A stretch of 39,228 nucleotides of DNA from Clostridiales bacterium DTU024 (GTDB lineage: Bacteria > Bacillota > Clostridia > Christensenellales > Aristaeellaceae), in assembly GCA_001513425.1 (NCBI GenBank), contig LFTR01000051.1:9056-48283 (forward strand). Direction: 5' to 3'. A program made the position numbers and the translations under genes. The notes beneath the pieces were generated by a model. It was not told the DNA's origin and did no database searches. It worked only from the letters and a program-made list of their open reading frames with translations. Of this stretch, positions 872-24,580 are shown piece after piece (position 1 is the stretch's first letter; each line of letters begins with the position of its first letter).

Positions 872-942
872 TGATCCATCCTTTCTGTATGTTATAAAAT
901 CAAATAGTGTCAATGGAATTGTGATCGCGTTGTGACATTCTC

Positions 943-986
943 TGCTTTTCGAAAAAAGCTCCGTGGAATTTCCACTTTCAAAGTGG
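943..986 (-). terminator. Putative rho-independent terminator region with overlapping hairpins
   Basis: Minus strand CCACTTTGAAAGTGG overlapping GTGGAAATTCCAC, then GGAGCTTTTTTCG, downstream of the 1010-1954 CDS. Confidence 0.5.
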
Positions 987-1009
987 GCCTCCCGAGGGTC
1001 ATGGGCGGT

Positions 1010-1954: not shown

Positions 1955-1987
1955 CGTATACCTCCTCAGGAAGGATCATTTGCTGCT

Positions 1988-3130
1988 TTAGAGCGTATGG
2001 GCGCGGACATCGCGCAATTTTTCCGTCATCCCGGTCATCAGAAGGACCATGATCAGCGCCGCGGCGGGGAGAAAAGCAATATACGCGTCCCCTGCTATTT
2101 GGCCAAACAGCGCCGGCACCAGAAGCGTACCCGTATACGCGCTCGCCATCTGCAGTCCGATAATATATGGCGAAAAGGCTTCCCCAAAGTGGAAAGGCGT
2201 GCGGTGGATCAATAGGGGATAGATGGGCGCGCAGCCAAGGCCTACAACAAACAGTGCAAACGGGGCGGCGAAAAGGGGCAGCAGTTGCAGCAATAACAGA
2301 CCCATAAGGATCAGCCCTTCGCCCAGACGCAGCATGCCTTGGTGTGAGAATTTTTCCGCGAGAAAACCGCTGAGCATTCTGCCCGCCGTAATGCCGGCAA
2401 AGAAAAGCCCCGCAAACGCGGCGGCGTCGGCTTTGGGCGCGCCGCGTGCCAACACGAGGTAGGAGCTGCTCCACAGCCCCATCAGCGCTTCGGCGGCGCA
2501 GTAGAAAAAGAATGCGCTCAGTGCGGGCAGTACGCCGGGGACCCGCAAAAGGTCCTTGTAGCGCGGCGACCGTTCGGCCGCGGCGTTTTTCTCGATCCCC
2601 TTGTCCTGCCACTTAGGCAGAGCGCGCAGCAAAATGACGGACAGCCCGATCTGCAGTGCCGCAATGATCAGATACCCCAACCGCCAGCTGCCCCGTGTCA
2701 GCGCCATCAGCATGGGCCCGGCGGAAGCCCCCAGCCCCCAGAAGCTGTGCAGCCAGCTCATGTGCTTGGCTTCATAGTGCAAGGAAACATAGCTGTTGAG
2801 TGCGGCATCCACGGCGCCAGCGCCCAGGCCCAGTGGGACCGCCAGTACCATCAGCATCCACGCGGATCGGACAAACGCATAGCCTGTCAGCGCCAGCGCG
2901 GTTGCGATGACGCTCATCACCAGCAGTTTGCCCGTACCCAGTTTGCGCAGGATGCGTGCGGAAAAGAGACTGGACAGGATAGTGCCCAATGCCGTTACCA
3001 TGTTGATAAGCCCCGCGGCTTCCACCGATGCCCCAAGATCGGGGTACATCATGGGCCACGCCGCGCCCAGCACGGCGTCCGGAAGCCCCAGGGAAATGAA
3101 ACTCAAATAGATGATCACCAGCAGCGTCAT
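1988..3130 (-). CDS. MFS transporter
   Basis: 380 aa, about 12 hydrophobic segments; MFS-like layout (ISLGLPDAVLGAAWPMMYPDLG...). Confidence 0.85.
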   Translation of the reverse strand: MTLLVIIYLSFISLGLPDAVLGAAWPMMYPDLGASVEAAGLINMVTALGTILSSLFSARILRKLGTGKLLVMSVIATALALTGYAFVRSAWMLMVLAVPLGLGAGAVDAALNSYVSLHYEAKHMSWLHSFWGLGASAGPMLMALTRGSWRLGYLIIAALQIGLSVILLRALPKWQDKGIEKNAAAERSPRYKDLLRVPGVLPALSAFFFYCAAEALMGLWSSSYLVLARGAPKADAAAFAGLFFAGITAGRMLSGFLAEKFSHQGMLRLGEGLILMGLLLLQLLPLFAAPFALFVVGLGCAPIYPLLIHRTPFHFGEAFSPYIIGLQMASAYTGTLLVPALFGQIAGDAYIAFLPAAALIMVLLMTGMTEKLRDVRAHTL

Positions 3131-3289
3131 ATATGATCCCTTCCGTTAACCAAGAAATGGTGCGTTCAGCGCTCTCCTTGCGGCCCAAGGGGACGCGTGC
3201 TTCATCCGTGGATCTGGGGGAAGCCCAGGCGTACCAAAAAAACCAAAGCAGAAGCAGCGAAGCGCCTTTTTTCAGCATCCCTGTTTCCG

Positions 3290-3328
3290 CCGGAAAAAGG
3301 GAGTGCAACTCGTTCTTGTTGCACTCCC
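3290..3328 (-). terminator. Rho-independent terminator of purA
   Basis: Minus strand GGGAGTGCAAC-aagaacga-GTTGCACTCCC-TTTTTCC: perfect 11-bp stem plus U tract immediately downstream of the purA stop. Confidence 0.9.
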
Positions 3329-3334
3329 AAAGGG

Positions 3335-4609
3335 TCAGCGGTAAATGATAGCGTCTCTGTGCGGTCCATTGGAGAGCATGCGCAGCGGCGTGCCGATGCG
3401 TTCTTCTATAAACTCTACGTACTTGCGGCAGTTTTCGGGGAGGTCGCTATACGTGCGCACATCCTTAACATCTGTTTTCCAGCCCGGCAGCGTTTCATAA
3501 ACGGGCGTAGCGCGCTGAAGGTCGGGTGTCACGGGGAAATCCATGCTCACAGTGCCGTCCAGTTCGTAGCCCACGCACACCTTGATCTCATCCAGATAGC
3601 TCAGGACATCCAGATTGGTCATGGCACACTCGGTCGCGCCCTGCACCATGCAGCCATAACGCGTTGCCACGCAGTCAAACCAGCCCACGTCGCGCGGGCG
3701 CCCGGTCTTCGCGCCGTATTCGCCGGCGTCCCCGCCGCGCTTGCGCAGTTCTTCCGCTTCGTCGCCCGTCATTTTGGTCGGGAAGACGCCGGTGCCGACG
3801 CTGGAGGAATAGGCCTTGGTGACGGCGATCACCCGGGTGATCGCCCAGGGCGGCAGTCCCGCGCCCACCGTTGCGTACCCCGCCAGGGGCGACGAGGACG
3901 TCGTGTAGGGGAAAATGCCGTGGTCCGGGTCGCGCAGCGCGCCCAATTGGCCTTCCAGAAGGATGCTCTTGTCCGCCTTCAAAGCGGCATGCAGGTATTG
4001 CGTGGAGTCCACGACCATATGCTTGATCTGCTGTCCCAAAGCATAGTACTTTTCCGTATATTCATCGGCGTTCAGCAGCGGCTTATGGTACAAGTGCTCC
4101 AATAGGATGTTCTTTTTGATAAAGGACGCCTTCAGCCTCTCATGCAAAACATCTTTGTCCAACAAGTGGCACACCTGTATGCCCACCTTGGCGGCTTTGT
4201 CGCTGTAAAAGGGCGCGATGCCCGATTTGGTGGAGCCAAACTTGAAGTCCCGCAGGCGCTCTTCTTCATAGGTGTCCATTAGAACGTGACAGTCCATCAA
4301 CACCTGCGCGCGGCTGGAGATCATGAGCTGTGGCTGCGGCGCACCCTTGGAGAGGACCTCGCCCATTTCCTTAAGCAATGCATCAATGTCCAGCGCGACG
4401 CCGGGGCCGATCAGATTATCCACACCTGCGTTAAAAATGCCGCTGGGCAACAGGTGCAAAGCGAATTTTCCGTATTCGTTGATGATGGTGTGGCCCGCGT
4501 TGGCACCGCCCTGAAAGCGGATGACAATGTCGCTGCCCTTCGCCAACACGTCCGTCAGTTTGCCCTTGCCTTCATCTCCCCAGTTTGCTCCAACAATAGC
4601 ACGAACCAT
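3335..4609 (-). CDS. purA: Adenylosuccinate synthetase
   Basis: 424 aa; N-terminus VRAIVGANWGDEGKGKLTDVLA and VGAGLPPWAITRVIAVTKAYSSSVGTGVFPT are PurA signatures. Confidence 0.97.
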   Translation of the reverse strand: MVRAIVGANWGDEGKGKLTDVLAKGSDIVIRFQGGANAGHTIINEYGKFALHLLPSGIFNAGVDNLIGPGVALDIDALLKEMGEVLSKGAPQPQLMISSRAQVLMDCHVLMDTYEEERLRDFKFGSTKSGIAPFYSDKAAKVGIQVCHLLDKDVLHERLKASFIKKNILLEHLYHKPLLNADEYTEKYYALGQQIKHMVVDSTQYLHAALKADKSILLEGQLGALRDPDHGIFPYTTSSSPLAGYATVGAGLPPWAITRVIAVTKAYSSSVGTGVFPTKMTGDEAEELRKRGGDAGEYGAKTGRPRDVGWFDCVATRYGCMVQGATECAMTNLDVLSYLDEIKVCVGYELDGTVSMDFPVTPDLQRATPVYETLPGWKTDVKDVRTYSDLPENCRKYVEFIEERIGTPLRMLSNGPHRDAIIYR

Positions 4610-4647
4610 TCTTGAACCTCCCTATATCGCTGTAAGTGATTGCCTGT

Positions 4648-5871
4648 TTATAAAATGCCTATGATCCGCGCCGAGGCTTCCGCTGCCGATTCGCGGCTGC
4701 CAAAGGCGGTCAGGCGAAAATAGCCTTCGCCGCAGGGGCCAAAGCCCGCGCCGGGCGTGCCCACGACGTGCGCTTTGTTGAGCAGAAAATCAAAGAAATT
4801 CCATGACGGCATGTTGTCCGGCGTCCTCATCCAGATGTAGGGCGCGTCAACGCCCCCGTAGACGCTCAGACCGCCTTTTCTCAGCGTGTCCAGAATGACT
4901 CCGGCATTATCCAGATAGTAGCGGATATTCTGGCGTGTTTCCTCTTGCCCTTTGGTATCATACACGGCGGCTGCCGCTGCCTGCACGGGGTAGGAAACGC
5001 CGTTGTTCTTGCTGCCGGTGCGGCGTTTCCACATGCGGTTGAGGGATACTTTTTCGCCGTTTCCGTCAAGGCCCATAACGCTGTGCGGGATCACCGTATA
5101 GGCGCAGCGCACGCCGGTAAACCCGGCTGTTTTGGAGAACGAGCAGCACTCGATGGCGACATCCTTGGCGCCTTCGATCTCGTAAATGGACAGCGGGATA
5201 TCATCGCTTGTTACAAATGCCTTGTAGGCGGCATCAAAAATGATGAGGGCATCGTTTTCGCGCGCCCAGTCCACGTATTTTTTCAGCTGCGTGCGCGTCA
5301 GCACTGTGCCGGTAGGGTTATTGGGATAGCATAGGTACAGCACATCCGCCTTTTTATCGGGCAGCGGGGGCTCAAAATCGTTTTCTGCCGTGGCGGGCAG
5401 GTAAACGGCGCGTGTCCATTTTCCGTCAACATATTCGCCCAACCGCCCCGCCATGGCGTTGCTGTCCACATACACGGGGTAGACCGGGTCGGTCAGCGCG
5501 ATCACAGCGTCTTGGGAGAACAGTTCCTGTATGGCCGCGGCATCCGTCTTGGCGCCGTCGGAGATGAATATTTCGCTGTCTTTAAGGCTGACGCCCCGGG
5601 AAGAATAATCGTGGCGGTTGATCTTTTCCACCAGAAAAGCGTAGCCTTCCCCCGGCGGATAGCCGCGAAAACCTTCTTGCGTCGCCATGCCCAGTGCCGC
5701 GTCCGCAAACTTCCGCGCCACATAGGGCGAGAGGGGACGCGTCACGTCCCCGATGCCCAAGCGCAGTACCTGCGCGTCGGGATGCGCTTCTTCAAACGCC
5801 GATACCCGCGACGCGATCTCGGCAAACAAATAACTGCCCGGCAGCGTCGCTATGCTGCTGTTTATTTTCAT
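4648..5871 (-). CDS. dapL: LL-diaminopimelate aminotransferase
   Basis: Likely start at 5871 (MKINSSIATLPGSYLFAEIASRV); LRLGIGDVTRPL, PNNPTGTVLT, SFSKTAGFTGVRCAYTVIP typical of DapL. The ORF track start at 5922 overlaps dapF. Confidence 0.95.
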   Translation of the reverse strand: MKINSSIATLPGSYLFAEIASRVSAFEEAHPDAQVLRLGIGDVTRPLSPYVARKFADAALGMATQEGFRGYPPGEGYAFLVEKINRHDYSSRGVSLKDSEIFISDGAKTDAAAIQELFSQDAVIALTDPVYPVYVDSNAMAGRLGEYVDGKWTRAVYLPATAENDFEPPLPDKKADVLYLCYPNNPTGTVLTRTQLKKYVDWARENDALIIFDAAYKAFVTSDDIPLSIYEIEGAKDVAIECCSFSKTAGFTGVRCAYTVIPHSVMGLDGNGEKVSLNRMWKRRTGSKNNGVSYPVQAAAAAVYDTKGQEETRQNIRYYLDNAGVILDTLRKGGLSVYGGVDAPYIWMRTPDNMPSWNFFDFLLNKAHVVGTPGAGFGPCGEGYFRLTAFGSRESAAEASARIIGIL

Positions 5872-5881
5872 GCTTATCTCC

Positions 5882-6727
5882 CTAAACTGCCGAGTCTTCC
5901 AGCCACTCGCCGTCAAAAACATAGGAGGCGGGACCGGACTGGTAAACGTGATTATCTTCAGCGTTCCAGCATAATTCCAGGTTGCCGCCGGATAACTTCA
6001 CCTGCGCGGTGCGGTCACTCATGCCGCACAGGACAGCCGCCACCAGGGCGGCGCTGGCGCCCGTACCACAGGCCAGGGTTTCGCCTGCTCCGCGCTCCCA
6101 TACGCGCATCTGGAGGATATCGCGCCTGATGACGCGCACAAACTCCACGTTGGTGCGGCGTGGGAACAGCGGATGGTTTTCGAACATCGGTCCCAGAGTT
6201 TGCAGGTCGATCACTTCCGGGTCGCGCACAAACACCACGCAGTGGGGATTGCCCATGTTGACGCAGGTCACAAACCAGCTTTGTCCCAAAATTTGCAGGC
6301 GGTGGCGCAGCACGATTTCACCCGGCAAGTCCACCGTGATGTTCTTGGGGTTCAATTCCGGGCTGCCCATGTCCACGCGCACGCGCGTCACTTTGCCATC
6401 TTCCACCGTCAAGAGCAGCTGGCGTACGCCGGACTTGGTCGAGAGCGTGATTTCCTTCTTGTCTGTCATGCCGCGCTCAAAGACATAGCGTCCGATACAC
6501 CTGGAGGCATTGCCGCACATTTCGGCTTCCGAGCCGTCAGAGTTGAAAATGCGCATGCCAAAGTCCGCCGTGTCGCTGTGTTCTATGAGCACCAGTCCGT
6601 CCGCGCCCACACCAAAGTGCGGCTTGCTCATCACAATCGCCTGGCGGGAGGGGTCGGCTACCATTTCCTCGAAACAGTTGACAAAGATGTAGTCATTGCC
6701 AATACCGTGCATTTTCGTAAATCGCAT
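5882..6727 (-). CDS. dapF: Diaminopimelate epimerase
   Basis: 281 aa; MRFTKMHGIGNDYIFVNC, MCGNASRCIGRYV, ACGTGASAALVAAV with both catalytic Cys regions. Confidence 0.96.
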   Translation of the reverse strand: MRFTKMHGIGNDYIFVNCFEEMVADPSRQAIVMSKPHFGVGADGLVLIEHSDTADFGMRIFNSDGSEAEMCGNASRCIGRYVFERGMTDKKEITLSTKSGVRQLLLTVEDGKVTRVRVDMGSPELNPKNITVDLPGEIVLRHRLQILGQSWFVTCVNMGNPHCVVFVRDPEVIDLQTLGPMFENHPLFPRRTNVEFVRVIRRDILQMRVWERGAGETLACGTGASAALVAAVLCGMSDRTAQVKLSGGNLELCWNAEDNHVYQSGPASYVFDGEWLEDSAV

Positions 6728-6742
6728 GGTTGTTCCTTTCTC

Positions 6743-8449
6743 CTACATTTTTTCCGGCGCTTCCACCCCGATGAGGCTAAGGCCGGTTCCAATGACTTCC
6801 CGCGCAGCTTTGGTCAGTTCCAGGCGTGCCCGGGTCCCGTTCAGGTCTTCCGCGATAATGCGGTGCTCGTAGTAGTATTTGTTGTATTTCTTGGCTATTT
6901 CTGTGACGGCACGGGTGATGACATACGGTTCGTTGCGCTGCATGGCTTCCTCCACTTCCTCCGGGAAGCGTGAGAGGAGCAACAGAAGCTGCAGCGCTTC
7001 ATCATTATCCAGTGCCGAATAATCAGGCTCTGCCGCAATGTCTTCGCCCTTTTTCAATACGCTGCCGCAGCGGGCAAACGTGTACTGCACATACGGGCCC
7101 GTTTCCCCGTCAAAATTAAGGGCGCGGTCCCACCAGAAATCAATGTCCTTGATGCGGTTGTTGTACAGGGTGGAAAAAACCACCGCGCCGACGCCCACTT
7201 GCTTGGCGACCAGTTCCTTGTTTTCAATGTCCGGACTTTTCTCTTCCAGGATGTCCAGTGCCTTTTCCTGCGCTTTGTCAAGCAGTTCATCCAGGTGTAT
7301 GACATTGCCGCGGCGTGTCGAGAGGGCCTCGCCCTCGTAGGACACCATGCCAAAGGCGACATGTTCCATATGGCCCGCCCATGCATAGCCCATTTTGCGC
7401 AGTACGGCGAACAATTGCCTGAAATGCAGATCCTGCTGGTAGGCGACCACGTAAAGGCATTTGGAAAAATCGTATGTTTTCTTGCGGTACAGCGCCGCCG
7501 CCAGATCGCGCGTGGCATACAGCGTCGCGCCGTCGGATTTGAGGATCAGGCAGGGGGGCATCCCCTCGTCTTCCAGATCCACAACCCACGCGCCCTGGCT
7601 TTGAACAAGCAGGCCTTTGTCGCGCAGTTCGTCGATCACCACACCCATTTTGTCGTTGAAAAAGCTTTCGCCGTCATAGGAGTCAAATGTCACGCCCAGA
7701 ATATCGTATACCTTTTGCGCGTCCTTGAGGGTCATTTCTTTGAAATGGTTAAAAATGGAAAGGGCTTCTTCGTCCCCTTCCTCGATTTTTTTGAACCATG
7801 CGCGGCCTTCGTTTTCCAGTTCCGGGTCAGTTTCGGCTTCCTTGTGGAAACGGACGTAAAGGTCGCTCAGCGCTTCCACGCCGCCTGAGCGGATCATGTC
7901 CCTGGTGCCCCAGCGCTTGTAGGCGGAGATCATCTTGCCAAACTGCGTGCCCCAGTCGCCCAAGTGGTTGATTGAGACCGTGCGATACCCCAAAAAGCCG
8001 TAGATACGCGTCAATGCCGCGCCAATCACGGTGGTGGAGAGGTGGCCGATGTGGAAACGCTTGGCAATATTGATGGAGGAAAAATCAATGCAGACTGTCT
8101 TGCCCCTTCCCTGAGTGGAGGAGCCCCATTGCCCGGGCGAAGCCAATACATCCTCGATCACGCCGCGGGCAAAAGCCGTGCGGTTCAAAAAGAAATTAAG
8201 GTAGCCGCCCGCAGTCTCCGCCCGCGCCAAATCCGGCGCGTCGATAAAATCGTTTAAGCGCCCGGCGATCTGAGGCGGTCCCATTTTGAGCAGTTTTGAC
8301 AACCTGAAACAGGGGAACGCATAGTCCCCCATGTTGGTGTCCGGCGGTACTTCCAGCATGCCCGGAATATCTTGTGGCGCATCAGTCCCGGGAAAAGCCA
8401 ATCCAATCGCGCGGGCGATCAGCTCCGCGATACTCGTTTTCCAGTCCAT
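6743..8449 (-). CDS. argS: Arginyl-tRNA synthetase
   Basis: Likely start at 8449 (MDWKTSIAELIARAIG); DFSSINIAKRFHIGHLSTTVIG (HIGH motif), class I ArgRS C-terminal anticodon-binding domain. Confidence 0.95.
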   Translation of the reverse strand: MDWKTSIAELIARAIGLAFPGTDAPQDIPGMLEVPPDTNMGDYAFPCFRLSKLLKMGPPQIAGRLNDFIDAPDLARAETAGGYLNFFLNRTAFARGVIEDVLASPGQWGSSTQGRGKTVCIDFSSINIAKRFHIGHLSTTVIGAALTRIYGFLGYRTVSINHLGDWGTQFGKMISAYKRWGTRDMIRSGGVEALSDLYVRFHKEAETDPELENEGRAWFKKIEEGDEEALSIFNHFKEMTLKDAQKVYDILGVTFDSYDGESFFNDKMGVVIDELRDKGLLVQSQGAWVVDLEDEGMPPCLILKSDGATLYATRDLAAALYRKKTYDFSKCLYVVAYQQDLHFRQLFAVLRKMGYAWAGHMEHVAFGMVSYEGEALSTRRGNVIHLDELLDKAQEKALDILEEKSPDIENKELVAKQVGVGAVVFSTLYNNRIKDIDFWWDRALNFDGETGPYVQYTFARCGSVLKKGEDIAAEPDYSALDNDEALQLLLLLSRFPEEVEEAMQRNEPYVITRAVTEIAKKYNKYYYEHRIIAEDLNGTRARLELTKAAREVIGTGLSLIGVEAPEKM

Positions 8450-8556
8450 GCCTTCCTCCCTCCGGAAAATCACACGTAATGATACCATGTTCTTCCATCA
8501 GGCGCAAGAATCGGAGCCGGTCGACAAATCTGCATTATCGCGCAATACCAACACTG

Positions 8557-11336: not shown

Positions 11337-12422
11337 TTAGTACCTTAGCAGCGCCAGCCGGCCGTGCGGCAGTTCCAGCGCGCCGCCACGATCGGAATAG
11401 ACGCGGCCGCCGTTTTGCAGCACCTGTTGCGCAGCCTTATCCATCGAAGCTTGCTCGCTTTCCCTGAGGACCTGCGGCAGGATCAGTAACTCAACGCGGC
11501 CTTCCTGCGCAGCGGCAGCGATATCTTTCAGGTCGCCCACGGCTTTATTTTCGTTTTGTTTGTTGTTGATGAGGGTGCGCAGGCTGCTGAGTGATTTTTC
11601 CAGACTCGGTTTCAGTATGGTTTTGATGCGCCCGGCGATGTCATCCGGGGAGAGGGATTCCAGCGGGCTTTCGATCTTGCCGTCCAGATAAAACGCGCCC
11701 TTTGCCAAAGCGCTGAATTCGTTGAGGCTGTCTTGCGTACCGGCCAAAATGACGGGCAAGCCGCTTTTCTTATTGAGCGACGCAAACGCGCCGTCCAGGT
11801 AACGGAAGTACTTTTCTCTGTCCTTTTCCGTTTCTTCGGGTTTGGAACCATGGCCGTGGAATGCGCCGGAAAGACCGCCGTAACTCCCGGTGCGCAGGTT
11901 GGCGTTTGCGTCAAAATCGTCGAACAGTTCGGAGAAATCGTTTTTGATATCCGGCATCTCCATCTCTGTGATGCCCTCACTGCCGGCATAGTACATGATA
12001 AAACGATCGCGGCTGATATCCGCCAGGTAGGCTTGGGAAAGGGACCCGATCAGTGGGTACAGCGGCAGCAGATGAAAATCATCGCCCACGTAGAAAGCGG
12101 GGTCCTCCGGGCTATCCAGGAGAAATGTCTCCGCCCTGCCGCCGGCACCCAGTACCCCCAGGCCTTCTGTGGTATGCATCCAGAAGTTCTCATCCTCCAA
12201 CAGCAGCTGCATTTTTTCAAACGTCTTTTCCCAATCGCGGCGCGGGGAACGCTCCTCCAGAGCGTTTTCCACCAATTTCAATTGGTTTTTATAGACAATG
12301 GGGTCCTGCCGGTTGTCGGGGTAAGCGCGGTGCGTGGGGATATAAAGAGAAATCCTGGGTGTATCCTCTGCGATGAGTTCGCCTACCAGTTTGTCGCGTC
12401 TTTTTTCATCTATCATTTTCAT
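11337..12422 (-). CDS. Bacterial archaeo-eukaryotic release factor family (baeRF, probably family 3) protein
   Basis: 361 aa; RISLYIPTHRAYPDNRQDPIVYKNQLKLVENAL N-terminus, followed by an eRF1/Pelota-like middle domain; RBS AGGAGGAAATGAAA. Confidence 0.7.
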   Translation of the reverse strand: MKMIDEKRRDKLVGELIAEDTPRISLYIPTHRAYPDNRQDPIVYKNQLKLVENALEERSPRRDWEKTFEKMQLLLEDENFWMHTTEGLGVLGAGGRAETFLLDSPEDPAFYVGDDFHLLPLYPLIGSLSQAYLADISRDRFIMYYAGSEGITEMEMPDIKNDFSELFDDFDANANLRTGSYGGLSGAFHGHGSKPEETEKDREKYFRYLDGAFASLNKKSGLPVILAGTQDSLNEFSALAKGAFYLDGKIESPLESLSPDDIAGRIKTILKPSLEKSLSSLRTLINNKQNENKAVGDLKDIAAAAQEGRVELLILPQVLRESEQASMDKAAQQVLQNGGRVYSDRGGALELPHGRLALLRY

Positions 12423-12835: not shown

Positions 12836-14041
12836 CTAATCCCACCTTGACAGCACGTTTCCGAACCGATCATAAAGAAAAGCGCTGTCTTGTTTTTTTT
12901 CATGCCAGACTTCGTTTTCGCCCTGCCACAGATAATCGGCACCGGGCCTTGTTGATACGGAAACGGTCTGTCCGCTTTTAATGAGAGAACCCTCCGGGAA
13001 CATGAACACTTCGCTGCCCCTTTGGGACTGGATCATGAAGCCGGAGATATCCATATCCGCGCCGCTGTTCATGACCGTGACGGTTTGCGTGTCCCGATCG
13101 ACGCCCGTGATCTCCGGAGTGGAAAAGAGGCGGGGCAGTATCGGTGCCGTGACCCGGACGGACCCGTCCTTTTTGACCGTAATCATTACACCCACTGCAA
13201 AGTCTTGCGTCAAAAATACATTTGCATCATTCAGTGCGGCGAGTACCCGTTCATTTGCGGAATTCTCATCCTCAGTTGTATCCGTGGAGACGATTGCGTA
13301 CGCGGGCGATACGGCGGCGGCGAACTGATCACCCGTCGCGTCCGGATTGCCATGGTTGCCGACTTTGAGGATGTCGGCGTCAAGATCCGCGCCGGAACGC
13401 AGCAGCGCGTTTTCACCCGCGAACTGTGCGTCCCCCATGAACAGCAGTGTTCTGCCAAAGAAATCGAGCTTGAGCACCAGCGAATTGTCGTTGTCATCAT
13501 CCTCATTCAAAAGGATCGGACCCAGCACACTAAAGCAGACGTCCTCCGAGAGGAAGACTTTGTCGCCCGCGTTGAGCTTCAATTGGGGAAGCTGCAAATC
13601 CTGCGCGAGCTCGTCGATCTTGTTCCCGCCTTTCTTCTTGTCCAGCGAAAACAAAGATGAGTAAAGTTTTTCCACGGTGAAATAGCGCGCCAGCGCATTC
13701 ATGCCGCCCAAATGATCGCTGTCCGTATGTGTCAGAAACACACTGTCAAGCCTATCCACTTCCAACAAGTTCATCGCGCCGAAAAGAGCAGGTGCCGAGG
13801 CCTTTTTTCCCGTGTCGATAAGATAGGCCTTGCCATCGTAACGCAGCAAAGCAGCGTCCGCTTTCCCGACGTTGATAAATAAAACAGTCAATTCATCAGA
13901 TGCGGTTTCCCGTACCGGATCGCCGGGCGGGTCTTCCAAAGACGCAAAATCATGCGTTTGCGCGGCGAGTGAGCAAGAGGCTGCAGTGAAAGGAAGAAAA
14001 GTGAGGCACGCCATCAACACAACATAGAACAGTTTCTTCAA
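12836..14041 (-). CDS. Secreted ComEC/Rec2-like MBL-fold hydrolase with C-terminal lamin-tail-like (LTD) domain
   Basis: N-terminal signal MKKLFYVVLMACLTFLPFTAASC; FINVGKADAALLRYDGKAYLIDTG, HTDSDHLGGM metal motif, LLFMGDAQ, KVGNHGN; C-terminus SGFMIQSQRGSEVFMFPEGSLIKSGQTVSV...FLYDRFGNVLSRWD resembles LTD. Confidence 0.85.
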   Translation of the reverse strand: MKKLFYVVLMACLTFLPFTAASCSLAAQTHDFASLEDPPGDPVRETASDELTVLFINVGKADAALLRYDGKAYLIDTGKKASAPALFGAMNLLEVDRLDSVFLTHTDSDHLGGMNALARYFTVEKLYSSLFSLDKKKGGNKIDELAQDLQLPQLKLNAGDKVFLSEDVCFSVLGPILLNEDDDNDNSLVLKLDFFGRTLLFMGDAQFAGENALLRSGADLDADILKVGNHGNPDATGDQFAAAVSPAYAIVSTDTTEDENSANERVLAALNDANVFLTQDFAVGVMITVKKDGSVRVTAPILPRLFSTPEITGVDRDTQTVTVMNSGADMDISGFMIQSQRGSEVFMFPEGSLIKSGQTVSVSTRPGADYLWQGENEVWHEKKQDSAFLYDRFGNVLSRWD

Positions 14042-15072: not shown

Positions 15073-15276
15073 TCGTCATGCCTCCTTTCAAGCATTTCCT
15101 TTCACTACGAAAGTACCCCTGTCACGCGTCCATAGACAGGCCGCGCGCCTCACGCCTTGTGAAACGCGCGGAAGATGCAATAAGCATGGAAATTTGTTAT
15201 AATGACACGGATTATACGTTTGATTTGAATGCGTAAGCGCATTTGGCATTGTTTGGTTCACGAAAGGCAGAGTGAC

Positions 15277-18200
15277 ATGGATCTGATAAAAAGGCAAAAA
15301 AACAGACAGACGCGGCAGGAGGGTCTAAGGGCGCAGGAGAGCTTTGGTCCCAAGGAGTGGACAGAGCAGATGACCGCCCTGGCCGGCAACCTGTCCCGGG
15401 TAAAATGGAAAAAGCACAATATCATCGTGGTGAACAGCACAAAAGTGCACAACCGTATGAATGAGTTTAGAGCGCTGATTGAAGATATGCCCTCGGACAT
15501 TATTGCCCTCATTCCCTCGGCGCGCTGGCTGTTTGACAATTTCCAGATGGTATATCGTGAAATAAAGAGGCTCAACGCCTCCATGACGGGGTTTGCCGCC
15601 ATGCCGGTCCTCAAAGGCCGGGAGGGGCGCGGCCTTCCGCGGATGTACGTCATCGCCAGGAAAATGGTGGAGGCGTCGGGCGGCTACCTCAATGAAGAAA
15701 ACATCATCCTGATGATCAAGGCCTATCAGGAAGTGCAGCCCCTGACCAACAGAGAATTGCACGTGATGCCCGAAATGATTGGGCTGGCGGTGCTGGAGCA
15801 TGTATTGGACGTGACGCGCGAAATAATCAGCGTGGCGGAGCTCAAAGCCCGTGCTGATCGCTTTGTCAAAGAAAACTACAATGCGGAGCATGACTATCCT
15901 GATATTGCGCCTTTGATAAAGCCGGTACCGGAAAGCGAAACGGATATCTATTTTCACAGCCATGTGCTGTATCTGCTTAAGAATTTGTCAGCGGAACAGC
16001 AGGCTATCCAGCGGTATATCGCTTTTCATTTTGAGGACGAAGGCCAAAATATTGCCTCAGTCGATATTTTCAAGGAAGAAAGCCGCCAGGAGTCCATTCT
16101 GGAATCCGCTATCCGCAACCCGGTTGCCAGCCTGAAGGAACTCAACGAGCTTAACGAAGAAACGCTGTTTGAAGAACTGTCGCTGGTGGAGGGGATATTA
16201 TCAAAGGACCCCGCGGGCGTTTATCCCAGGATGGACGCGGGCAGCCGCGGTATGTACCGCCTGGTCATTGAAAGGCTGTCCAAAAAGCATGCATATCAGG
16301 AGACGGATGTGGCGGAGACCTGCCTCAATTTGGCGCAGCGCGGGCATCCGCGGCTGACCAATCCCCATCACGTGGGTGTTTACCTTGTCGGCAAGGGCAA
16401 AGGGCTGCTCAAGGAAAAGCTGCTTAAGGGCAAAACAGCAGGCATTGTCAAAGAAAAGAAGAACGTCAAGGGCCTTGCCTATTTCCTGTCCGGGGGGCTG
16501 TTGTTGGCACTGATGGCATTTCTTGTCTTTTTTGCGCTCCAAAAAGAGGGATACGGCGGACAAGCGGCCCATGTGTCGCTCTACCTCTTGGCGGCTTTGC
16601 CGCTGCTGGTGGGTCTGGCCGTCAAAATAACGAACTATGTTTTTTCCAGGAGCGTGCCCGCCAAAGAGCTGCCCGCCATGGATTATACCGAAAGTATCCC
16701 TGAATCCGCCGCCGCCTACGTCATCATGCCCGTCATCATTTCCAAGGAAAAGCAAGGCATTAATTATCTGAATCGACTGGAAAAGCATTTTTTGGCGAAC
16801 CGGCAGGACAATCTTCATTTTGCGCTGCTGGCGGACTATGCAGACGCTCCCGCCAAGGAGATGCCGGAAGACGAGGGGATCAGGCGCGCTCTTACCGATC
16901 GCTTGGCGGTCCTAAATGCGCAATACCCGTCGGAGCTTCCCAAGTTTTCCCTTTTCATTCGTGAGCGTCGGTGGAATGAGTCTGAAGACTCCTTCATGTG
17001 CTGGGAGCGCAAACGCGGCAAGCTTGAGGAGTTCAACCGGCTGCTAAACGAGGAACCGGTAGAGAATACCAGTTTTGAGATCGTCTTGGCCGCGCCTGAA
17101 TTATGGGGAAATATCAGGTACGTCATCACGCTGGATGCGGACAGCGATTTGGTTCTGGGCAATGCCGCCAAAATGGTGGGCATTATTGACCATCCCCTAA
17201 ACCGCGCCATCGTGGATATGAAGTCCGGGACGGTCAAGGAAGGTTATGCCATCATTCAACCGCAGGTGATGAACCACATAAGTCTTGGCAACAGCTCCTT
17301 TGAGAAAGTGTATTCCGGCCGCACGGGTCTTCCCAATTACTCCATGGCCGTGTCGGATGTTTATCAGGATGTCTTCGAACAGGGTACGTTTGTGGGCAAG
17401 GGCATCTATAATGCCAAAGTGTTCCACACACTCTTAAACGGTGTGATCCCCGAGAACCGTGTGCTCAGCCACGACCTGCTGGAAAGCTGCATCGCGCGCA
17501 CGGCATTTGCCGGCAACGCGTTCATTGTGGAATCGTTCCCCGGCAGCTATGCCTCTTATGTCAAGCGGCAGCACCGCTGGATCCGCGGCGATTGGCAGCT
17601 GTTGCCGTGGCTTTTCGGCCGGAAACTGAGTTTTCTTTCCAAATGGAAGATCGTGGACGATTTGCGCGCCAGCCTGATGCCCGTTGCCAAGCTTGCGGTG
17701 CTTTTCATAAATCTCCTTTTATTCCCGCACGCGTGGTGGGTGTGGGCAGGCCTTATGGCGGTGCCCCTGGTGATTGACTTTGGCACCCTTCTGCTCAACA
17801 TTGTTGTGCATTTGGCGCAAAAACAGCGCTATGTGCTGCTGTATCGCAAACTCCTGAGTGAAATCATCGTGCAGATATGCCGTTTCGTGCTTGATCTGGT
17901 GCTGATCCCCTATGAAGCGTACTATTCCATGGATGCCGTTTTGCGTACGCTTTACCGCTACCTTATCAGCAAAAAGCGTTTTCTTATGTGGGAGGCCTTT
18001 GAGCACGCGGAGAAAGCGGCGGCAAATTCCTTTGGGTTGTACCTTGGCCGCATGTGGCCCACTGTCATACCGGCCGGGCTGTTGGCGTGGGTCATTTTCA
18101 TTACGCCGCTGCCCCTTTTGGCCATCCTGCTTTACGCTTTGCTGGCGCTATCGTGGGCCATGTCGTCTTTTATTGCCTATTGGATCAGCCGGCCAAACGA

Positions 18201-21200
18201 TAAACACAAAACACGGGAAGAACTGGACCCGGTTAATCTTTTGCAGGATACAGGCCGAAAGATCTGGCGCTTTTTCCGCGATTTCTCCACCGAGGACAGC
18301 AACTATCTGCTCCCGGACAACTTCCAGTTGGGGCGCCGCGAAAAACTGACACACAAGACGTCCCCCACCAATATCGGCCTTCAATTCCTGGCCGCTTTAT
18401 CGGCGCGGGATATGGGCTATGAAACGCTTACCAGCACGCTTGAATACATCACCAGCCTCCTGCACACGGTGCAGTCTCTTCCCAGATGGAACGGGCATCT
18501 GTACAACTGGTACGATACCCGCACGCTGGATATGCTTCATCCGCGCTATGTTTCCACCGTCGACAGCGGCAATTACATCGGCTACATTATTGCCCTGCGC
18601 GGCGGGCTTAAGGAACTGCGGGATGCGCCCGTTATGTCACCCGCGCTGCCGGAGGAACTCAACAAACTTCTCCACAACATCGACGCGGGCGTCAGTCTAA
18701 CGTGCGATTATGCATTGGTGGGCGATTTTGTCAAGGATGTCGCCGCCGCGCGCGGCAATTTGGCCAAACAGTCTACCTACAGGTCCAGCCGCGACATGAG
18801 CGATTTTATCCGCTTGGCGGACTTGGTCGAACACGACGCAACGGCTTTGGACCTAAACGATAGACCCTACGGCGACAAGGCAACGCTGCACGATCTGGCG
18901 GCGGATGGCAATTCCCGGGCCCGCGACCTGCTGGAGAAGATCAAGTGGATGACGGACTCGCTGCGTGCCGAAATAAGGGAAGCTGATTTCGGCAAGCTGT
19001 TCAATCCCAGGCGCAAACTGTTTACCATCGGCTTCAATGCCGGTGAACAAACCCATGACAAATCCTGCTACGACCTGATCGCGTCAGAAGCCGTGCTGAC
19101 CAGCGTTCTGGCCATCGCCAAAGGCGACGTGCCTGTCAGGCATTGGCAGCGCCTGGGGCGTCCGCTCACCATCATTTCCGGTATTCCGGCACACGTTTCG
19201 TGGAGCGGCACCATGTTTGAATACCTCATGCCACAATTGGTCCTGCGGGAGTTTAAGGGCAGCGTGTTTGAGGACTCTTCCCGGGCAGCGGTCCTTCAGC
19301 AGATGAAGTATGCTGAGCAGCACGAGGTCCCGTGGGGCATATCGGAGTCCCAGTATTACCGCTTTGACATCAACCAGAACTACCAATACAAGGCGTTTGG
19401 CGTTCCCAAACTGCGTTTGCAGTCCGTTTACCGCGACATGCTGGTGATTACGCCTTACGCGTCGTTTCTGGCGCTGGATTACGGCGGAGACAAGGTGCTG
19501 GCGAACCTCACCCGCATTTTGGATATGGGGGGCATGGGCGAATACGGTTTTTATGAAGCGATCGATTTTACCGTGCCCGATCCTGTTACGCTGGAAGATT
19601 ACTGCATCGTGCGTTCGTTCATGGCGCACCATCAGGGGATGAGTCTGGTAGCGATCAACAATTACCTCAACAATGGCATCATGCGCAGGCGCTTTCATGA
19701 AACGCCCATGATCAAGGCGGCGGAGGCGTTGGTCGAGGAAACGCATCAGGGCGTGTTCGCCACACCGTCCAGGCGCGGGTACACCATCAATTTGAAACCC
19801 AAGGAATTGCCGCAAGATGAAAGCATCGCCCTGCGCTACGTCAAAAATGTCGGTCTGACAATACCCTCCTCCAACTACATATCAAACGGCGATTATTCCC
19901 TCATGATCACGTCCGACGGGGATGGTTTCAGCACTTGGATGGACAAGATGCTTTATCGCTGGCGTCCGGATGTATATGCCGACACGGGCTACTATATCTA
20001 CGTAAGAGACGTCCAGGACAATCAGTATTGGAGCGCAGCATATAACCCCACGCGCAAAAAGCCCGACCACTATCAGGTCGTCTTTTCGCCCCATCAAAGC
20101 GCGTTTTCGCGCCGGGATGGCGAAGTCGCCACCGAAATGGTGGTTACCATCGGGCCCAATTACCCGCTGGAGTTCCGCAAAATCACCCTCAGAAATATCT
20201 CGAACCGTGCCAAAACGCTGGAAGTCACCAGCTACATGGAAGTCACCATGGATACCTTGGACGCGGAAGCCAGTCATCCGGCGTTTAACAAGTTGTTTAT
20301 TGAGAGTGAATATCTGGACGATCGCCGCGCTTTTATCGCCAAGAGGCGGGATGGTGTGGAAGAAGGTCCCTATGCCCTCAGCATGCTGCACACCGACGCG
20401 CCGCTTGCGCGCCCTGTGGAGTACGAAAACAACCGCCTCAAGTTTATTGGGCGCAACAATGCTCTAAGCAATCCGCAGGCGGTCAGCCAAGGCATGCCGC
20501 TTTCGGGCAGTACTGCCTTTTCAGGCGATCCCGTCCTGTGTATCCGCGCAGCGGTTACCTTGGCGCCGGGCGAAGTTGCCGAACTCACCTTCATGGGCGG
20601 CATGTTCCATACGCGCGAAGAATTGCTGCACGCCGTGGATGACTATGCGTACAGCTACAGGATGCGGGACGCAGCAGAGACGTTCCGCCAGCAAAGCCAA
20701 ATCGAGCTCAAATACCTGGATATGACGGGCACGCAGCATCGGGCGTTCCAAAATATCATCCGGCAGATCTACTACCCGTCCCGGTTCTTAAGGGGGCCGT
20801 CCGAAAACATCCGCCGCAACTGGGGCGGGCAGAGCAGTCTGTGGAAGTTCGGCATATCGGGCGACAACCCCATCATGCTGGTGATCGTGGCGTCGGAGAC
20901 CGAAACCAAATTGATGCGTGATGTCCTCAAGATCTACGAATACATGGGCATCAATCGTGTCAAAACAGACTTGGTCATCCTGGCGCAGAGCAAGTACGGC
21001 TATGCCAATGATGTTGTGGACATGATAAATACCGCCACCAGCAGCCTGAGGCTGTACGACAGCCCGCGCGAAAGGTCGGGTATCTACATCATCCGCTCCT
21101 ATGAGCTGAGCCCGGCGGAGACTGACTTGCTTTTCACCGTTGCCGGCGTGGTGTTTACGGGCGAAACGGGCATTTATTTCAGAAGGAATACCGCCCGGTA

Positions 21201-21201
21201 A
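15277..21201 (+). CDS. Cyclic beta-1,2-glucan synthase, GT84 plus cyclisation (Glycoamylase/GH189-type) plus GH94-associated N-terminal region; lacks the GH94 catalytic domain
   Basis: Track ORF starts at 15229; MDLIKRQ at 15277 is the more likely start. GT-A region ITLDADSDLVLG, QHRWIRGDWQLLP (QxxRW), several TM segments, SGNYIGYIIALRGGL...HVSWSGTMFEYLMP...GISESQYYRFD cyclisation region, then MVVTIGPNYPLEFRKITLRNIS. Confidence 0.9.
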   Translation: MDLIKRQKNRQTRQEGLRAQESFGPKEWTEQMTALAGNLSRVKWKKHNIIVVNSTKVHNRMNEFRALIEDMPSDIIALIPSARWLFDNFQMVYREIKRLNASMTGFAAMPVLKGREGRGLPRMYVIARKMVEASGGYLNEENIILMIKAYQEVQPLTNRELHVMPEMIGLAVLEHVLDVTREIISVAELKARADRFVKENYNAEHDYPDIAPLIKPVPESETDIYFHSHVLYLLKNLSAEQQAIQRYIAFHFEDEGQNIASVDIFKEESRQESILESAIRNPVASLKELNELNEETLFEELSLVEGILSKDPAGVYPRMDAGSRGMYRLVIERLSKKHAYQETDVAETCLNLAQRGHPRLTNPHHVGVYLVGKGKGLLKEKLLKGKTAGIVKEKKNVKGLAYFLSGGLLLALMAFLVFFALQKEGYGGQAAHVSLYLLAALPLLVGLAVKITNYVFSRSVPAKELPAMDYTESIPESAAAYVIMPVIISKEKQGINYLNRLEKHFLANRQDNLHFALLADYADAPAKEMPEDEGIRRALTDRLAVLNAQYPSELPKFSLFIRERRWNESEDSFMCWERKRGKLEEFNRLLNEEPVENTSFEIVLAAPELWGNIRYVITLDADSDLVLGNAAKMVGIIDHPLNRAIVDMKSGTVKEGYAIIQPQVMNHISLGNSSFEKVYSGRTGLPNYSMAVSDVYQDVFEQGTFVGKGIYNAKVFHTLLNGVIPENRVLSHDLLESCIARTAFAGNAFIVESFPGSYASYVKRQHRWIRGDWQLLPWLFGRKLSFLSKWKIVDDLRASLMPVAKLAVLFINLLLFPHAWWVWAGLMAVPLVIDFGTLLLNIVVHLAQKQRYVLLYRKLLSEIIVQICRFVLDLVLIPYEAYYSMDAVLRTLYRYLISKKRFLMWEAFEHAEKAAANSFGLYLGRMWPTVIPAGLLAWVIFITPLPLLAILLYALLALSWAMSSFIAYWISRPNDKHKTREELDPVNLLQDTGRKIWRFFRDFSTEDSNYLLPDNFQLGRREKLTHKTSPTNIGLQFLAALSARDMGYETLTSTLEYITSLLHTVQSLPRWNGHLYNWYDTRTLDMLHPRYVSTVDSGNYIGYIIALRGGLKELRDAPVMSPALPEELNKLLHNIDAGVSLTCDYALVGDFVKDVAAARGNLAKQSTYRSSRDMSDFIRLADLVEHDATALDLNDRPYGDKATLHDLAADGNSRARDLLEKIKWMTDSLRAEIREADFGKLFNPRRKLFTIGFNAGEQTHDKSCYDLIASEAVLTSVLAIAKGDVPVRHWQRLGRPLTIISGIPAHVSWSGTMFEYLMPQLVLREFKGSVFEDSSRAAVLQQMKYAEQHEVPWGISESQYYRFDINQNYQYKAFGVPKLRLQSVYRDMLVITPYASFLALDYGGDKVLANLTRILDMGGMGEYGFYEAIDFTVPDPVTLEDYCIVRSFMAHHQGMSLVAINNYLNNGIMRRRFHETPMIKAAEALVEETHQGVFATPSRRGYTINLKPKELPQDESIALRYVKNVGLTIPSSNYISNGDYSLMITSDGDGFSTWMDKMLYRWRPDVYADTGYYIYVRDVQDNQYWSAAYNPTRKKPDHYQVVFSPHQSAFSRRDGEVATEMVVTIGPNYPLEFRKITLRNISNRAKTLEVTSYMEVTMDTLDAEASHPAFNKLFIESEYLDDRRAFIAKRRDGVEEGPYALSMLHTDAPLARPVEYENNRLKFIGRNNALSNPQAVSQGMPLSGSTAFSGDPVLCIRAAVTLAPGEVAELTFMGGMFHTREELLHAVDDYAYSYRMRDAAETFRQQSQIELKYLDMTGTQHRAFQNIIRQIYYPSRFLRGPSENIRRNWGGQSSLWKFGISGDNPIMLVIVASETETKLMRDVLKIYEYMGINRVKTDLVILAQSKYGYANDVVDMINTATSSLRLYDSPRERSGIYIIRSYELSPAETDLLFTVAGVVFTGETGIYFRRNTAR

Positions 21202-21231
21202 TGGTACATGGGCACATGAGGAGGAGTATTC

Positions 21232-23613
21232 GTGCAATTTAGTGGAGATGCATTGTCTTTTTATAACGGTTTTGGCGGGTTCAGCCCGGATGGCAAGGAG
21301 TATGTCGTTACCTTGGATGAGGGCAAGACCCCGCCCGCACCTTGGATAAACGTTATCAGCAATCCGACGTTCGGGTTTGCCGTGTCGGAGACCGGCGCGG
21401 GATCCACCTGGGCGGGCAACAGCCGCGAAAATAAGATAACGCCCTGGTCGAACGACCCGGTCACCGATCGTGCCGGAGAAGCGATCTACATCAAGGACGA
21501 AGCGTCGCGCAGTGTTATCACGCCCATGTCCCTGGGCAGGCGGGACAGGGGCGCGTATACGGTGCACCACGGCTTTGGTTATACCCGTTTTGAGCACGAG
21601 GAAGAGGGGCTCAAACAAAGCCTTAAGGTGTTTACACCGCTGGATGAACCCCTCAAGATTTGGGCGTTGGATATCACCAATGTATCCGGGCGGGAGCGTG
21701 CGCTTTCCATTACCTACTATGTGGAATGGGTGCTGGGCGTGCAAAAAAGGCTGACCAATCCCTACATCGTGACGGAGTACAACAACCGTCACGAGTATAT
21801 GTCCGCTGAAAACGTCTACAACCCCGACTACCGCGAGTACCGTGCGTTTATGTTTTCCTCAGAGGCAGTCGCCGGGTACACGGGGGAGAAACAGGATGTT
21901 CTGGGGCGCGGGGGGAGTGTTCAATACCCTCTGGGGCTGGACACGGAACTGACTTTCACTACCGGCGTGGGTCTGGATGCTTGCGGCGCGCTGCAAGTGG
22001 CGGTCAGACTGGCCGCCGGGGAAACCCGGCAGGTGATCTTCGGCCTGGGCTATTGTGACGATGCGGACGTGGCCGAACATTACTGCGCCAAATACCGCAG
22101 AAAAAACATGGTTGGCGAAGAATTGGAGCGCGTTTCCGCTTACTGGGGCGAAACGTTGGGCACGGTGCAGGTGGAAACACACGACAAGGCCATCGATTTT
22201 ATGCTCAACGGATGGCTCATGTATCAGAACATCTCCTGCCGCATGTATTCCCGTGCTGCCTTTTACCAGTGCGGCGGCGCGTACGGTTACCGCGATCAGT
22301 TGCAGGACGTGCTGGCGCTGTTGTTGGCGCAGCCGCAGATGGCGCGCGATCAGATACTTATTGCCGCATCCCGGCAGTTTCCCCAAGGGGATGTCCAGCA
22401 TTGGTGGCATCCGCCCACGGGCGTGGGCGTCAGGACCAAAATAAGCGATGACCTTTTATGGCTGCCCTATGTAACGGCCGCATACATTGAAGCAACCGGC
22501 GATACCGGCGTATTGAGTGAAGAGACGCCCTACATTGAGGGACCGGGGCTCAGCGATATGCAGCACGACATGATGTTTGTGCCGGAAATAAGCCTCGAAA
22601 AGGATACGCTGTACGAACACTGCAAGAAGGCCATCCTGAAAACGGGGTTTGGCGAAAATGGCTTGCCGCTGATGGGCGGGGGCGACTGGAACGACGGGAT
22701 GGACAGGGTGGGCATCCAGGGCAAGGGCGAAAGCGTTTGGCTGGCGTGGTTCCTGTACGCCGTTATCGACTGTTTCATTCCGCTGAGCCGCCTGATGGGA
22801 GATAATAGTTTTGCCGACGAGATGCACGTTCTCAAAGAAACGCTTAAGGCCAATATCAACAAGAACGCCTGGGATGGCGAGTGGTTTTTGCGGGCGTTTT
22901 ATGACGACGGAACGAAGCTCGGCTCAAGCGAAAATAATGAATGCCGTATTGACTCTATCAGCCAATCCTGGAGCATCATTTCCGGCGCGGGGCAAAAGGA
23001 CAAGCAGCTCAAGGCGTTTGATTCAGCCTACAAATACCTGGTGTTGGAGGATGAGGGCGTATCGCTTCTCTTGACGCCGCCCTTTGACAAGACGCCCAAA
23101 AACCCCGGTTACATCAAGGATTACGCACCCGGGGTTCGCGAAAACGGCGGGCAGTACACGCACGGCGCGATCTGGCTGGCCATTGCTGCCGCGCTGCTTA
23201 ACGACACCAAGCGCGCGTATGCGCTCTTTTCCATGCTTAATCCCATCAATCACACATCCAGCCGCAAAGGCGCGATGCTTTACGAAAAGGAGCCCTACGT
23301 GATGGCGGGGGACGTTTCTTACATGGCGCCCTATACCGGGCGCGGCGGGTGGAGCTGGTACACCGGCAGCGCTGCCTGGCTGTATACCGGCATGCTCAGG
23401 TACCTCCTTGGAATGCACAAGGAGGGCGATACACTGATCGTTGCCCCCCGCGTACCGGATAATTTCGGGGATTATACTATAAAATACCGCTACAGATCCA
23501 CGCTTTACATCTTGGATGTCAAGATCAGCCGGCGGGACGCCGCCGATATCGAGGTAACCCGCATTCTTTTGCGCGACGACGGGGGCGAACATCACATCAC
23601 GGTGGAAGCGTAA
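21232..23613 (+). CDS. GH94 family phosphorylase, equivalent to the C-terminal domain of cyclic beta-1,2-glucan synthase / 1,2-beta-oligoglucan phosphorylase-like
   Basis: 793 aa, GTG start preceded by GAGGAGG; FYNGFGGFSPDGKEYVVTLDEGKTPPAPWINVISNPTFGFAVSETGAGSTWAGNSRENKITPWSNDPVTD, GGGDWNDGMDRVG catalytic-Asp region, APYTGRGGWSWYTGSAAW. Confidence 0.93.
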   Translation: MQFSGDALSFYNGFGGFSPDGKEYVVTLDEGKTPPAPWINVISNPTFGFAVSETGAGSTWAGNSRENKITPWSNDPVTDRAGEAIYIKDEASRSVITPMSLGRRDRGAYTVHHGFGYTRFEHEEEGLKQSLKVFTPLDEPLKIWALDITNVSGRERALSITYYVEWVLGVQKRLTNPYIVTEYNNRHEYMSAENVYNPDYREYRAFMFSSEAVAGYTGEKQDVLGRGGSVQYPLGLDTELTFTTGVGLDACGALQVAVRLAAGETRQVIFGLGYCDDADVAEHYCAKYRRKNMVGEELERVSAYWGETLGTVQVETHDKAIDFMLNGWLMYQNISCRMYSRAAFYQCGGAYGYRDQLQDVLALLLAQPQMARDQILIAASRQFPQGDVQHWWHPPTGVGVRTKISDDLLWLPYVTAAYIEATGDTGVLSEETPYIEGPGLSDMQHDMMFVPEISLEKDTLYEHCKKAILKTGFGENGLPLMGGGDWNDGMDRVGIQGKGESVWLAWFLYAVIDCFIPLSRLMGDNSFADEMHVLKETLKANINKNAWDGEWFLRAFYDDGTKLGSSENNECRIDSISQSWSIISGAGQKDKQLKAFDSAYKYLVLEDEGVSLLLTPPFDKTPKNPGYIKDYAPGVRENGGQYTHGAIWLAIAAALLNDTKRAYALFSMLNPINHTSSRKGAMLYEKEPYVMAGDVSYMAPYTGRGGWSWYTGSAAWLYTGMLRYLLGMHKEGDTLIVAPRVPDNFGDYTIKYRYRSTLYILDVKISRRDAADIEVTRILLRDDGGEHHITVEA

Positions 23614-23743: not shown

Positions 23744-24580
23744 CTACTTATGTTTTTCGTAGAAACGGATGAAGGCGTTCATTACGCTCTGGATGAATTC
23801 GCGGGTTCCCTCGTTTATAAACGAGCCGTCCTCATTAAACAGGTCTTTGGCTTCCGCAATATAGACTTCAGGCTGCCCCATCAACACCGTGTTGACGACC
23901 GTCAGCAGTTTTTTGAGTTCCAGTGCCGCGGCCAGTGCGCCCAGCGCGCCGGGTGTGATGCCCATCACCATGGCGGGCTTGCGGCTCCAGTTGTTCTTGC
24001 CCATGGGGCGGGAGGCAATGTCGACCGCGTTTTTGATGGGTGCGGTGAAGGTGCGGTTATATTCGGGGGTCACGAAGATGACACCGTCCAGCGATTTGAC
24101 TTTGGCGCGGAACGCGATGATCTTGTCAGGCACGGGGCCATCCGTGTCCCAGGCCTGATCGTAAAAGGGCAGGTCCTTGATCCGGATGATCTCTGCCACA
24201 TAGCCTTCAGGCGTCATGTCTTCCAAAAGATCCGCGAGCCTGCGTGAGTACGAGCCCACGCGGAAGCTGCCGACAAAAATGCCAAAGCGTTTTGCGGGGG
24301 CTTCAAATGCCCTATATTCTTCATTGTTGTCAAAGGCCTTGCGCGCATACGGGCACACCGGAACGACCTTCAGTCCTTTTTGCTTGACGTCTTCCATTGC
24401 GAAAGCGAGCATTTGCCCCGCGATACCCTGCCCGCGGAACTGTTCTTCCACTTGAACATGACGGAAAACCATGGTTTTTTCGCCGTTCAAAGAAAGAAGG
24501 ATGCGGCCTATTTCGCGGCCGTCCTGATAAGCCGCATAACGGCGTGACTCGTCAACGTACTTGAATTGCAGCGTCTCCAT
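23744..24580 (-). CDS. Fusion protein: N-terminal GNAT (Acetyltransf_CG-like) domain plus NADPH-dependent FMN reductase
   Basis: 278 aa single ORF; residues about 1-90 FRHVQVEEQFRGQGIAGQMLAFAMEDVKQKGLKVVPVCPYARKAF; residues about 96-278 GIFVGSFRVGSYSRRLADLL...VIFVTPEYNRTFTAPIKNAVDIASRP. Confidence 0.88.
   Translation of the reverse strand: METLQFKYVDESRRYAAYQDGREIGRILLSLNGEKTMVFRHVQVEEQFRGQGIAGQMLAFAMEDVKQKGLKVVPVCPYARKAFDNNEEYRAFEAPAKRFGIFVGSFRVGSYSRRLADLLEDMTPEGYVAEIIRIKDLPFYDQAWDTDGPVPDKIIAFRAKVKSLDGVIFVTPEYNRTFTAPIKNAVDIASRPMGKNNWSRKPAMVMGITPGALGALAAALELKKLLTVVNTVLMGQPEVYIAEAKDLFNEDGSFINEGTREFIQSVMNAFIRFYEKHK

Follow-up and report, generated by a model that had tools for sequence, protein, structure and literature searches.

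Is the cyclic beta-1,2-glucan synthase (CGS) of Clostridiales bacterium DTU024 a damaged gene, or is it made as two proteins, and what would the second protein then do? The question arises in a 39,228-nucleotide stretch of contig LFTR01000051.1 (positions 9,056–48,283, forward strand; "the window"), in which two consecutive open reading frames, ORF1 and ORF2, together encode what is one polypeptide in Agrobacterium. The fission is real, and it has a single origin in a clade in which both genes are conserved and adjacent and keep their catalytic residues. We consider it probable that the pair encodes a two-subunit CGS from translationally coupled genes, with the length-controlling phosphorylase site shared between the subunits. 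The gene pair and its junction are as follows.

15229–21201, plus strand: ORF1, synthase/cyclase subunit, 1990 amino acids, ATG start (alternative ATG 15277 possible)
21199–21231, plus strand: junction, comprising TAA 21199, TGA 21217, GAGGAGG 21218–21224 and a 7-nucleotide spacer
21232–23613, plus strand: ORF2, separate GH94 phosphorylase subunit, 793 amino acids, GTG start

The initial annotation, made from the sequence of the window, had reported two in-frame stops, a GAGGAGG ribosome-binding site and a GTG in the same frame, and all of these were recovered. ORF1 ends with FRRNTAR and TAA (21199–21201) as annotated, whereas its start was taken from ATG 15229 and not from 15277. The second in-frame stop is the TGA at 21217–21219, the two frames are 30 nucleotides apart, and the ribosome-binding site ends 7 nucleotides upstream of GTG 21232. 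The base composition of the locus is that of its surroundings.

Domains were assigned by a Pfam search of both products, and homology by alignment with the Agrobacterium Cgs structures 8rf0/8rf9. ORF1 contains, in order, an N-terminal region, a GT84-type glycosyltransferase, membrane helices, the cyclase, the first GH94 sandwich (GP1) and a Rossmann-like subdomain (RFL); GP2 and GP3 lie in ORF2.

16834–17598, plus strand: glycosyltransferase core (alignment with 8rf9/8rf0)
19078–19704, plus strand: cyclase domain PF10091 (Pfam and alignment)
19864–20598, plus strand: GP1, first GH94 beta-supersandwich, ORF1 residues 1546–1790 (PF06165, E 1.6e-64)
20263–20304, plus strand: predicted pocket helices of GP1, segment A-E-x-S-H-P-A-F-x-K-L-F-x-E, ORF1 residues 1679–1692
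20716–21168 (limits approximate), plus strand: RFL, C-terminal end of ORF1 (alignment with Cgs 1847–2012)
21334–22050, plus strand: GP2, second GH94 supersandwich, in ORF2 (PF06165, E 4.5e-73)
22141–23412, plus strand: GP3, GH94 catalytic domain, in ORF2 (PF17167, E 8e-119)

The catalytic residues of all three activities, chain synthesis, cyclisation and phosphorolysis, are preserved across the two products. ORF1 D536, D636, D638, D749 and R783 align with Cgs D527, D624, D626, D739 and R773, and Tyr704 with the primer tyrosine Y694, residues whose roles in chain synthesis are known from Agrobacterium (PMC10901819). The cyclisation glutamates (PMC10834661; PMC11842490) are present as E1287 and E1373, equivalent to Cgs E1300/E1386 and to E1356/E1442 of TiCGS from Thermoanaerobacter italicus, to whose cyclisation domain the ORF1 cyclase stretch matches with E 9e-75 (structure 8wy1, which covers the isolated domain only). 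In ORF2, D355 and D488 align with Cgs D2393 and the catalytic acid D2528; with its sandwich and catalytic domains, catalytic aspartate and predicted fold, ORF2 has the hallmarks of a GH94 phosphorylase. Strong hydrophobic segments of ORF1 lie by hydropathy at about 413–441, 445–472, 812–863, 874–897 and 943–984, a profile that does not resolve the number of helices.

Agrobacterium Cgs (8rf0, 8rf9, 8rfe) thus resembles ORF1 plus ORF2 in domain order, catalytic residues and membrane part, but is one polypeptide. Read through the stops, the pair aligns with Agrobacterium Cgs/NdvB from end to end, lacking only the linker, and ORF2 corresponds to Cgs 2042–2814, which bears out the earlier impression that no GH94 sequence was lost. 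The proposed position of the break, exactly at the cyclase/GH94 border, needs correction: the C-terminal half of Cgs begins at 1536 and runs GP1, RFL (1847–2012), GP2, GP3 (PMC10901819), and this order places the break in the RFL/GP2 linker, inside the GH94-like C-terminal part and about 450 amino acids beyond the cyclase/GP1 border.

We scanned GTDB genomes with ORF2 and obtained the best 80 loci. Those whose upstream region could be read, together with the window and two further loci from its family, give a set of 40. In all 40, ORF1 and ORF2 are separate neighbours with ORF1 directly upstream, that is, in at least 39 loci besides the window, an arrangement far beyond chance. The gap is 1–37 nucleotides in 36 loci and 71–220 in the other four, and a ribosome-binding match of at least 6/7 precedes ORF2 in 33, in keeping with the proposed fission with a ribosome-binding site of its own; in five loci whose genes are 5 nucleotides apart, the Shine-Dalgarno-like word that matches best reaches into the end of ORF1. 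Identity to the window among split loci is 46–59% over the last 850 amino acids of ORF1 and 53–64% over ORF2. The pairs occur in Anaerocolumna, Lacrimispora, Kineothrix, Caproiciproducens, Petrocella, Marasmitruncus and many metagenome-assembled genomes (MAGs); most are clostridial, and the names of some MAGs filed under other phyla may be misassigned. No further conserved operon partner was found, any other neighbouring gene being kept in at most nine of the 40 loci. Side observations on split genes are a recurring short ORF1 tail like YELLEEY in Lachnospiraceae (for example L035 and L046–L048), which the window lacks, and two split-clade copies of ORF2, each behind a long ORF1-like frame, in a Herbinix MAG (G042).

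Of 300 genomes sampled from the window's family, 114 had a GH94 match at E <= 1e-100. Apart from the window, split-clade members were confined to three genomes from a single other genus, nearly all remaining matches being part of a long fused frame or situated at the end of a contig. A survey of the class found matches at E <= 1e-180 in 111 of 391 genomes, of which three belong to the split clade. Close relatives are split as well; that all of them carry one fused frame, which the initial annotation had named as a sign of an assembly error or a recent pseudogenising mutation, is not the case. Short GH94 frames in nine genomes (G163, G313, G076, G169, G251, G941, G779, G643 and G616) were not accepted as splits because the synthase frame reaches the contig end, nor were breaks elsewhere in L183, L184, L185, L098 and L101, which look like frameshifts.

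These loci leave little room for two explanations of the split. An assembly error or a recent pseudogenising mutation of a fused gene is hardly credible: the window was read from an assembly of 277 contigs, and the gene is absent from the other five genomes of its genus, but 39 independent loci, including the complete isolate chromosomes L036 and L038, have the same break and a ribosome-binding site, and both parts are under purifying selection in other pairs of the clade. Programmed stop-codon readthrough yielding some full-length fused protein, suggested earlier and compatible with the shared frame in the window, is extremely improbable, since the conserved same-frame continuation past one stop that marks readthrough genes is missing: the window has two stops, ORF2 lies in frame 0 relative to ORF1 in only four loci (frame 1 in 11, frame 2 in 25), the ORF1 stop varies (TAG 20, TAA 16, TGA 4), and strong ribosome-binding sites serve ORF2.

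How often did the split arise? The 40 split-group rows included in the ORF2 tree fall into one clade with a Shimodaira–Hasegawa-like approximate likelihood-ratio (SH-aLRT) support of 100; its sister group is small and consists of fused genes (L067, L068 and L071). The ORF1 tree recovers the same single clade (SH-aLRT 100); the split therefore arose once there. Both parts are under purifying selection, with ratios of non-synonymous to synonymous substitution (dN/dS) in six close pairs of 0.05–0.075 for ORF2 and 0.06–0.18 for the C-terminal part of ORF1. Distances among the ORF1 sequences agree closely with those among the ORF2 sequences (matrix correlation r = 0.97, permutation maximum 0.44). 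Outside this clade, one clean fission stands out.

517–8540 of locus L179 (genome G764): independent clean fission at the same linker, ORFs of 1885 and 788 amino acids, AGGAGG, TAATG stop/start overlap

At a further locus, L178 (G852), ORF2 begins within the end of the upstream ORF, and an in-frame TAA in the cyclase region (around 4695) spreads the CGS over three ORFs. That all split genes go back to one origin was rejected (approximately unbiased test, p = 8e-8), as was the grouping of L179 with the main split clade, which means at least two fissions at the RFL/GP2 linker; for L178 and L179 a common origin is possible (p = 0.076). Separately, a distant CGS on the minus strand (L136, genome G033) has a lone in-frame TGA in the RFL/GP2 linker at about 4559–4561, with neither a ribosome-binding site nor a start behind it, for which a nonsense mutation, an error or readthrough are options.

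The pocket suggests what the fission may do to the phosphorylase. In the free 1,2-beta-oligoglucan phosphorylase LpSOGP, which Cgs GP1–3 resemble (PMC10901819), the first sandwich domain (Ndom1) stands in for the partner subunit found in dimeric GH94 enzymes and lines the pocket with two helices, while the second (Ndom2) has a short loop at that place (PMC5309861). Cgs GP1 is the equivalent of Ndom1; the pocket insert is absent from Cgs GP2, and ORF2, which has the second sandwich only, is also shorter there. The corresponding GP1 segment of ORF1 is at least 97% identical at 11 of its 14 positions in 37 split loci, the H, L and F within it do not vary among fused relatives either, and an AlphaFold2 model spanning GP1-RFL-junction-GP2-GP3, with the stops read through, predicts two helices at this segment. 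This model matches Cgs at a template-modelling score (TM) of 0.94, its sole long low-confidence stretch (434–454) being the junction. The fission thus appears to part one wall of the pocket, which stays with the membrane subunit, from the catalytic acid, which goes with ORF2; this argues for a complex.

How does this compare with other roles for ORF2? The protein could be mainly a structural subunit needed for cyclisation, its phosphorylase activity being of little importance. The nearly normal function of the catalytically inactive Agrobacterium mutant D2528A, set against the failure of C-terminal truncations (PMC10901819), speaks for such a role, but the preservation of all GH94 catalytic residues and the strong purifying selection on ORF2 make it improbable. 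Alternatively, ORF2 could work on its own as a soluble homodimeric phosphorylase for recycling beta-1,2-glucan, its place beside the synthase serving only co-expression. In size and fold it is like the homodimeric GH94 enzymes (TM 0.82–0.88 to cellobiose- and chitobiose-type phosphorylases), and Listeria and Lachnoclostridium possess free beta-1,2-oligoglucan phosphorylases (PMC5309861). ORF2, however, is closest to CGS C-termini and not to the free enzymes, and the uncoupled recycling enzyme put forward in the initial annotation becomes less likely than proposed because ORF2 is never apart from ORF1 in the 40 loci, the halves co-evolve, and ORF1 retains the pocket segment in GP1, an insert that Cgs GP2 lacks; we regard this role as unlikely.

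In the two-subunit CGS that we favour, both proteins would be made from a single message, ORF2 being translated from its own ribosome-binding site directly after the ORF1 stop. ORF1 would start, elongate and cyclise the glucan; ORF2 would trim its non-reducing end and thereby set the ring size. The two most likely assemble like the corresponding parts of Agrobacterium Cgs, with GP1 of ORF1 completing a phosphorylase pocket to which ORF2 would contribute the catalytic acid. A role of this part in length control would agree with the larger rings made by a Brucella synthase whose phosphorylase domain is truncated (PMC11071196) and with the shortening of rings by phosphate in Cgs proteoliposomes.

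Several points weigh against this reading. The ORF2 model (predicted local distance difference test 85, predicted TM 0.89, TM 0.91 to Cgs) is by itself a complete cellobiose-phosphorylase-like fold, with one short helix in GP2 near the place equivalent to the GP1 helices, and cellobiose phosphorylases work as homodimers. The read-through model is uninformative on the binding of separate chains because it leans on fused relatives, the agreement of the distance matrices is also expected from joint inheritance alone, and the GP1 segment could be conserved for some other reason. The truncation data conflict, too: Agrobacterium Cgs 1–1846 is inactive (PMC10901819), while the truncated Brucella enzyme still makes rings. 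ORF1 ends after RFL, beyond the Agrobacterium truncation points, and the natural split can therefore help to separate trimming from scaffolding.

A more specific form of the heteromeric enzyme, in which the ORF2:ORF1 ratio tunes the share of synthase under length control, partly via a weak TTG start, is put forward tentatively and is possible rather than likely. Start codons of ORF2, as chosen by script, are TTG in 30 loci, ATG in nine and GTG in one; the TTG starts, mostly preceded by a near-perfect ribosome-binding site, may set the subunit ratio.

Among known GH94 enzymes, LpSOGP/LiSOGP have two sandwich domains and a catalytic domain, as GP1–3 here, but LpSOGP carries them all in one soluble monomer, whereas the equivalent of its Ndom1 sits here in the membrane subunit. 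The homodimeric cellobiose and chitobiose phosphorylases (2cqs, 3qde, 1v7v) share fold and size with ORF2, but their identity is 23–26%, and they complete the pocket with a second identical subunit. We found no description of a split or two-gene CGS among the open-access papers covered by our searches and regard it as a new variant of a known enzyme.

Three other genes of the window deserve mention.

11337–12422, minus strand: member of the bacterial archaeo-eukaryotic release factor group (baeRF)
12836–14041, minus strand: metallo-beta-lactamase fold protein with a weak C-terminal lamin-tail-domain match
23744–24580, minus strand: ORF fusing GNAT-like (PF14542) and FMN reductase (PF03358) domains

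Work on CGS has so far dealt with one giant protein whose polymerisation, cyclisation and length control are difficult to tell apart, and truncation experiments have given conflicting answers. A two-gene CGS found in nature reveals where evolution can cut the enzyme and yields two parts that can be expressed separately; whether the GH94 part trims or serves as a scaffold becomes directly testable. CGS is widespread in Clostridia, where we found little published on it, and its two-gene form suggests a phosphorylase site that is shared between two gene products.

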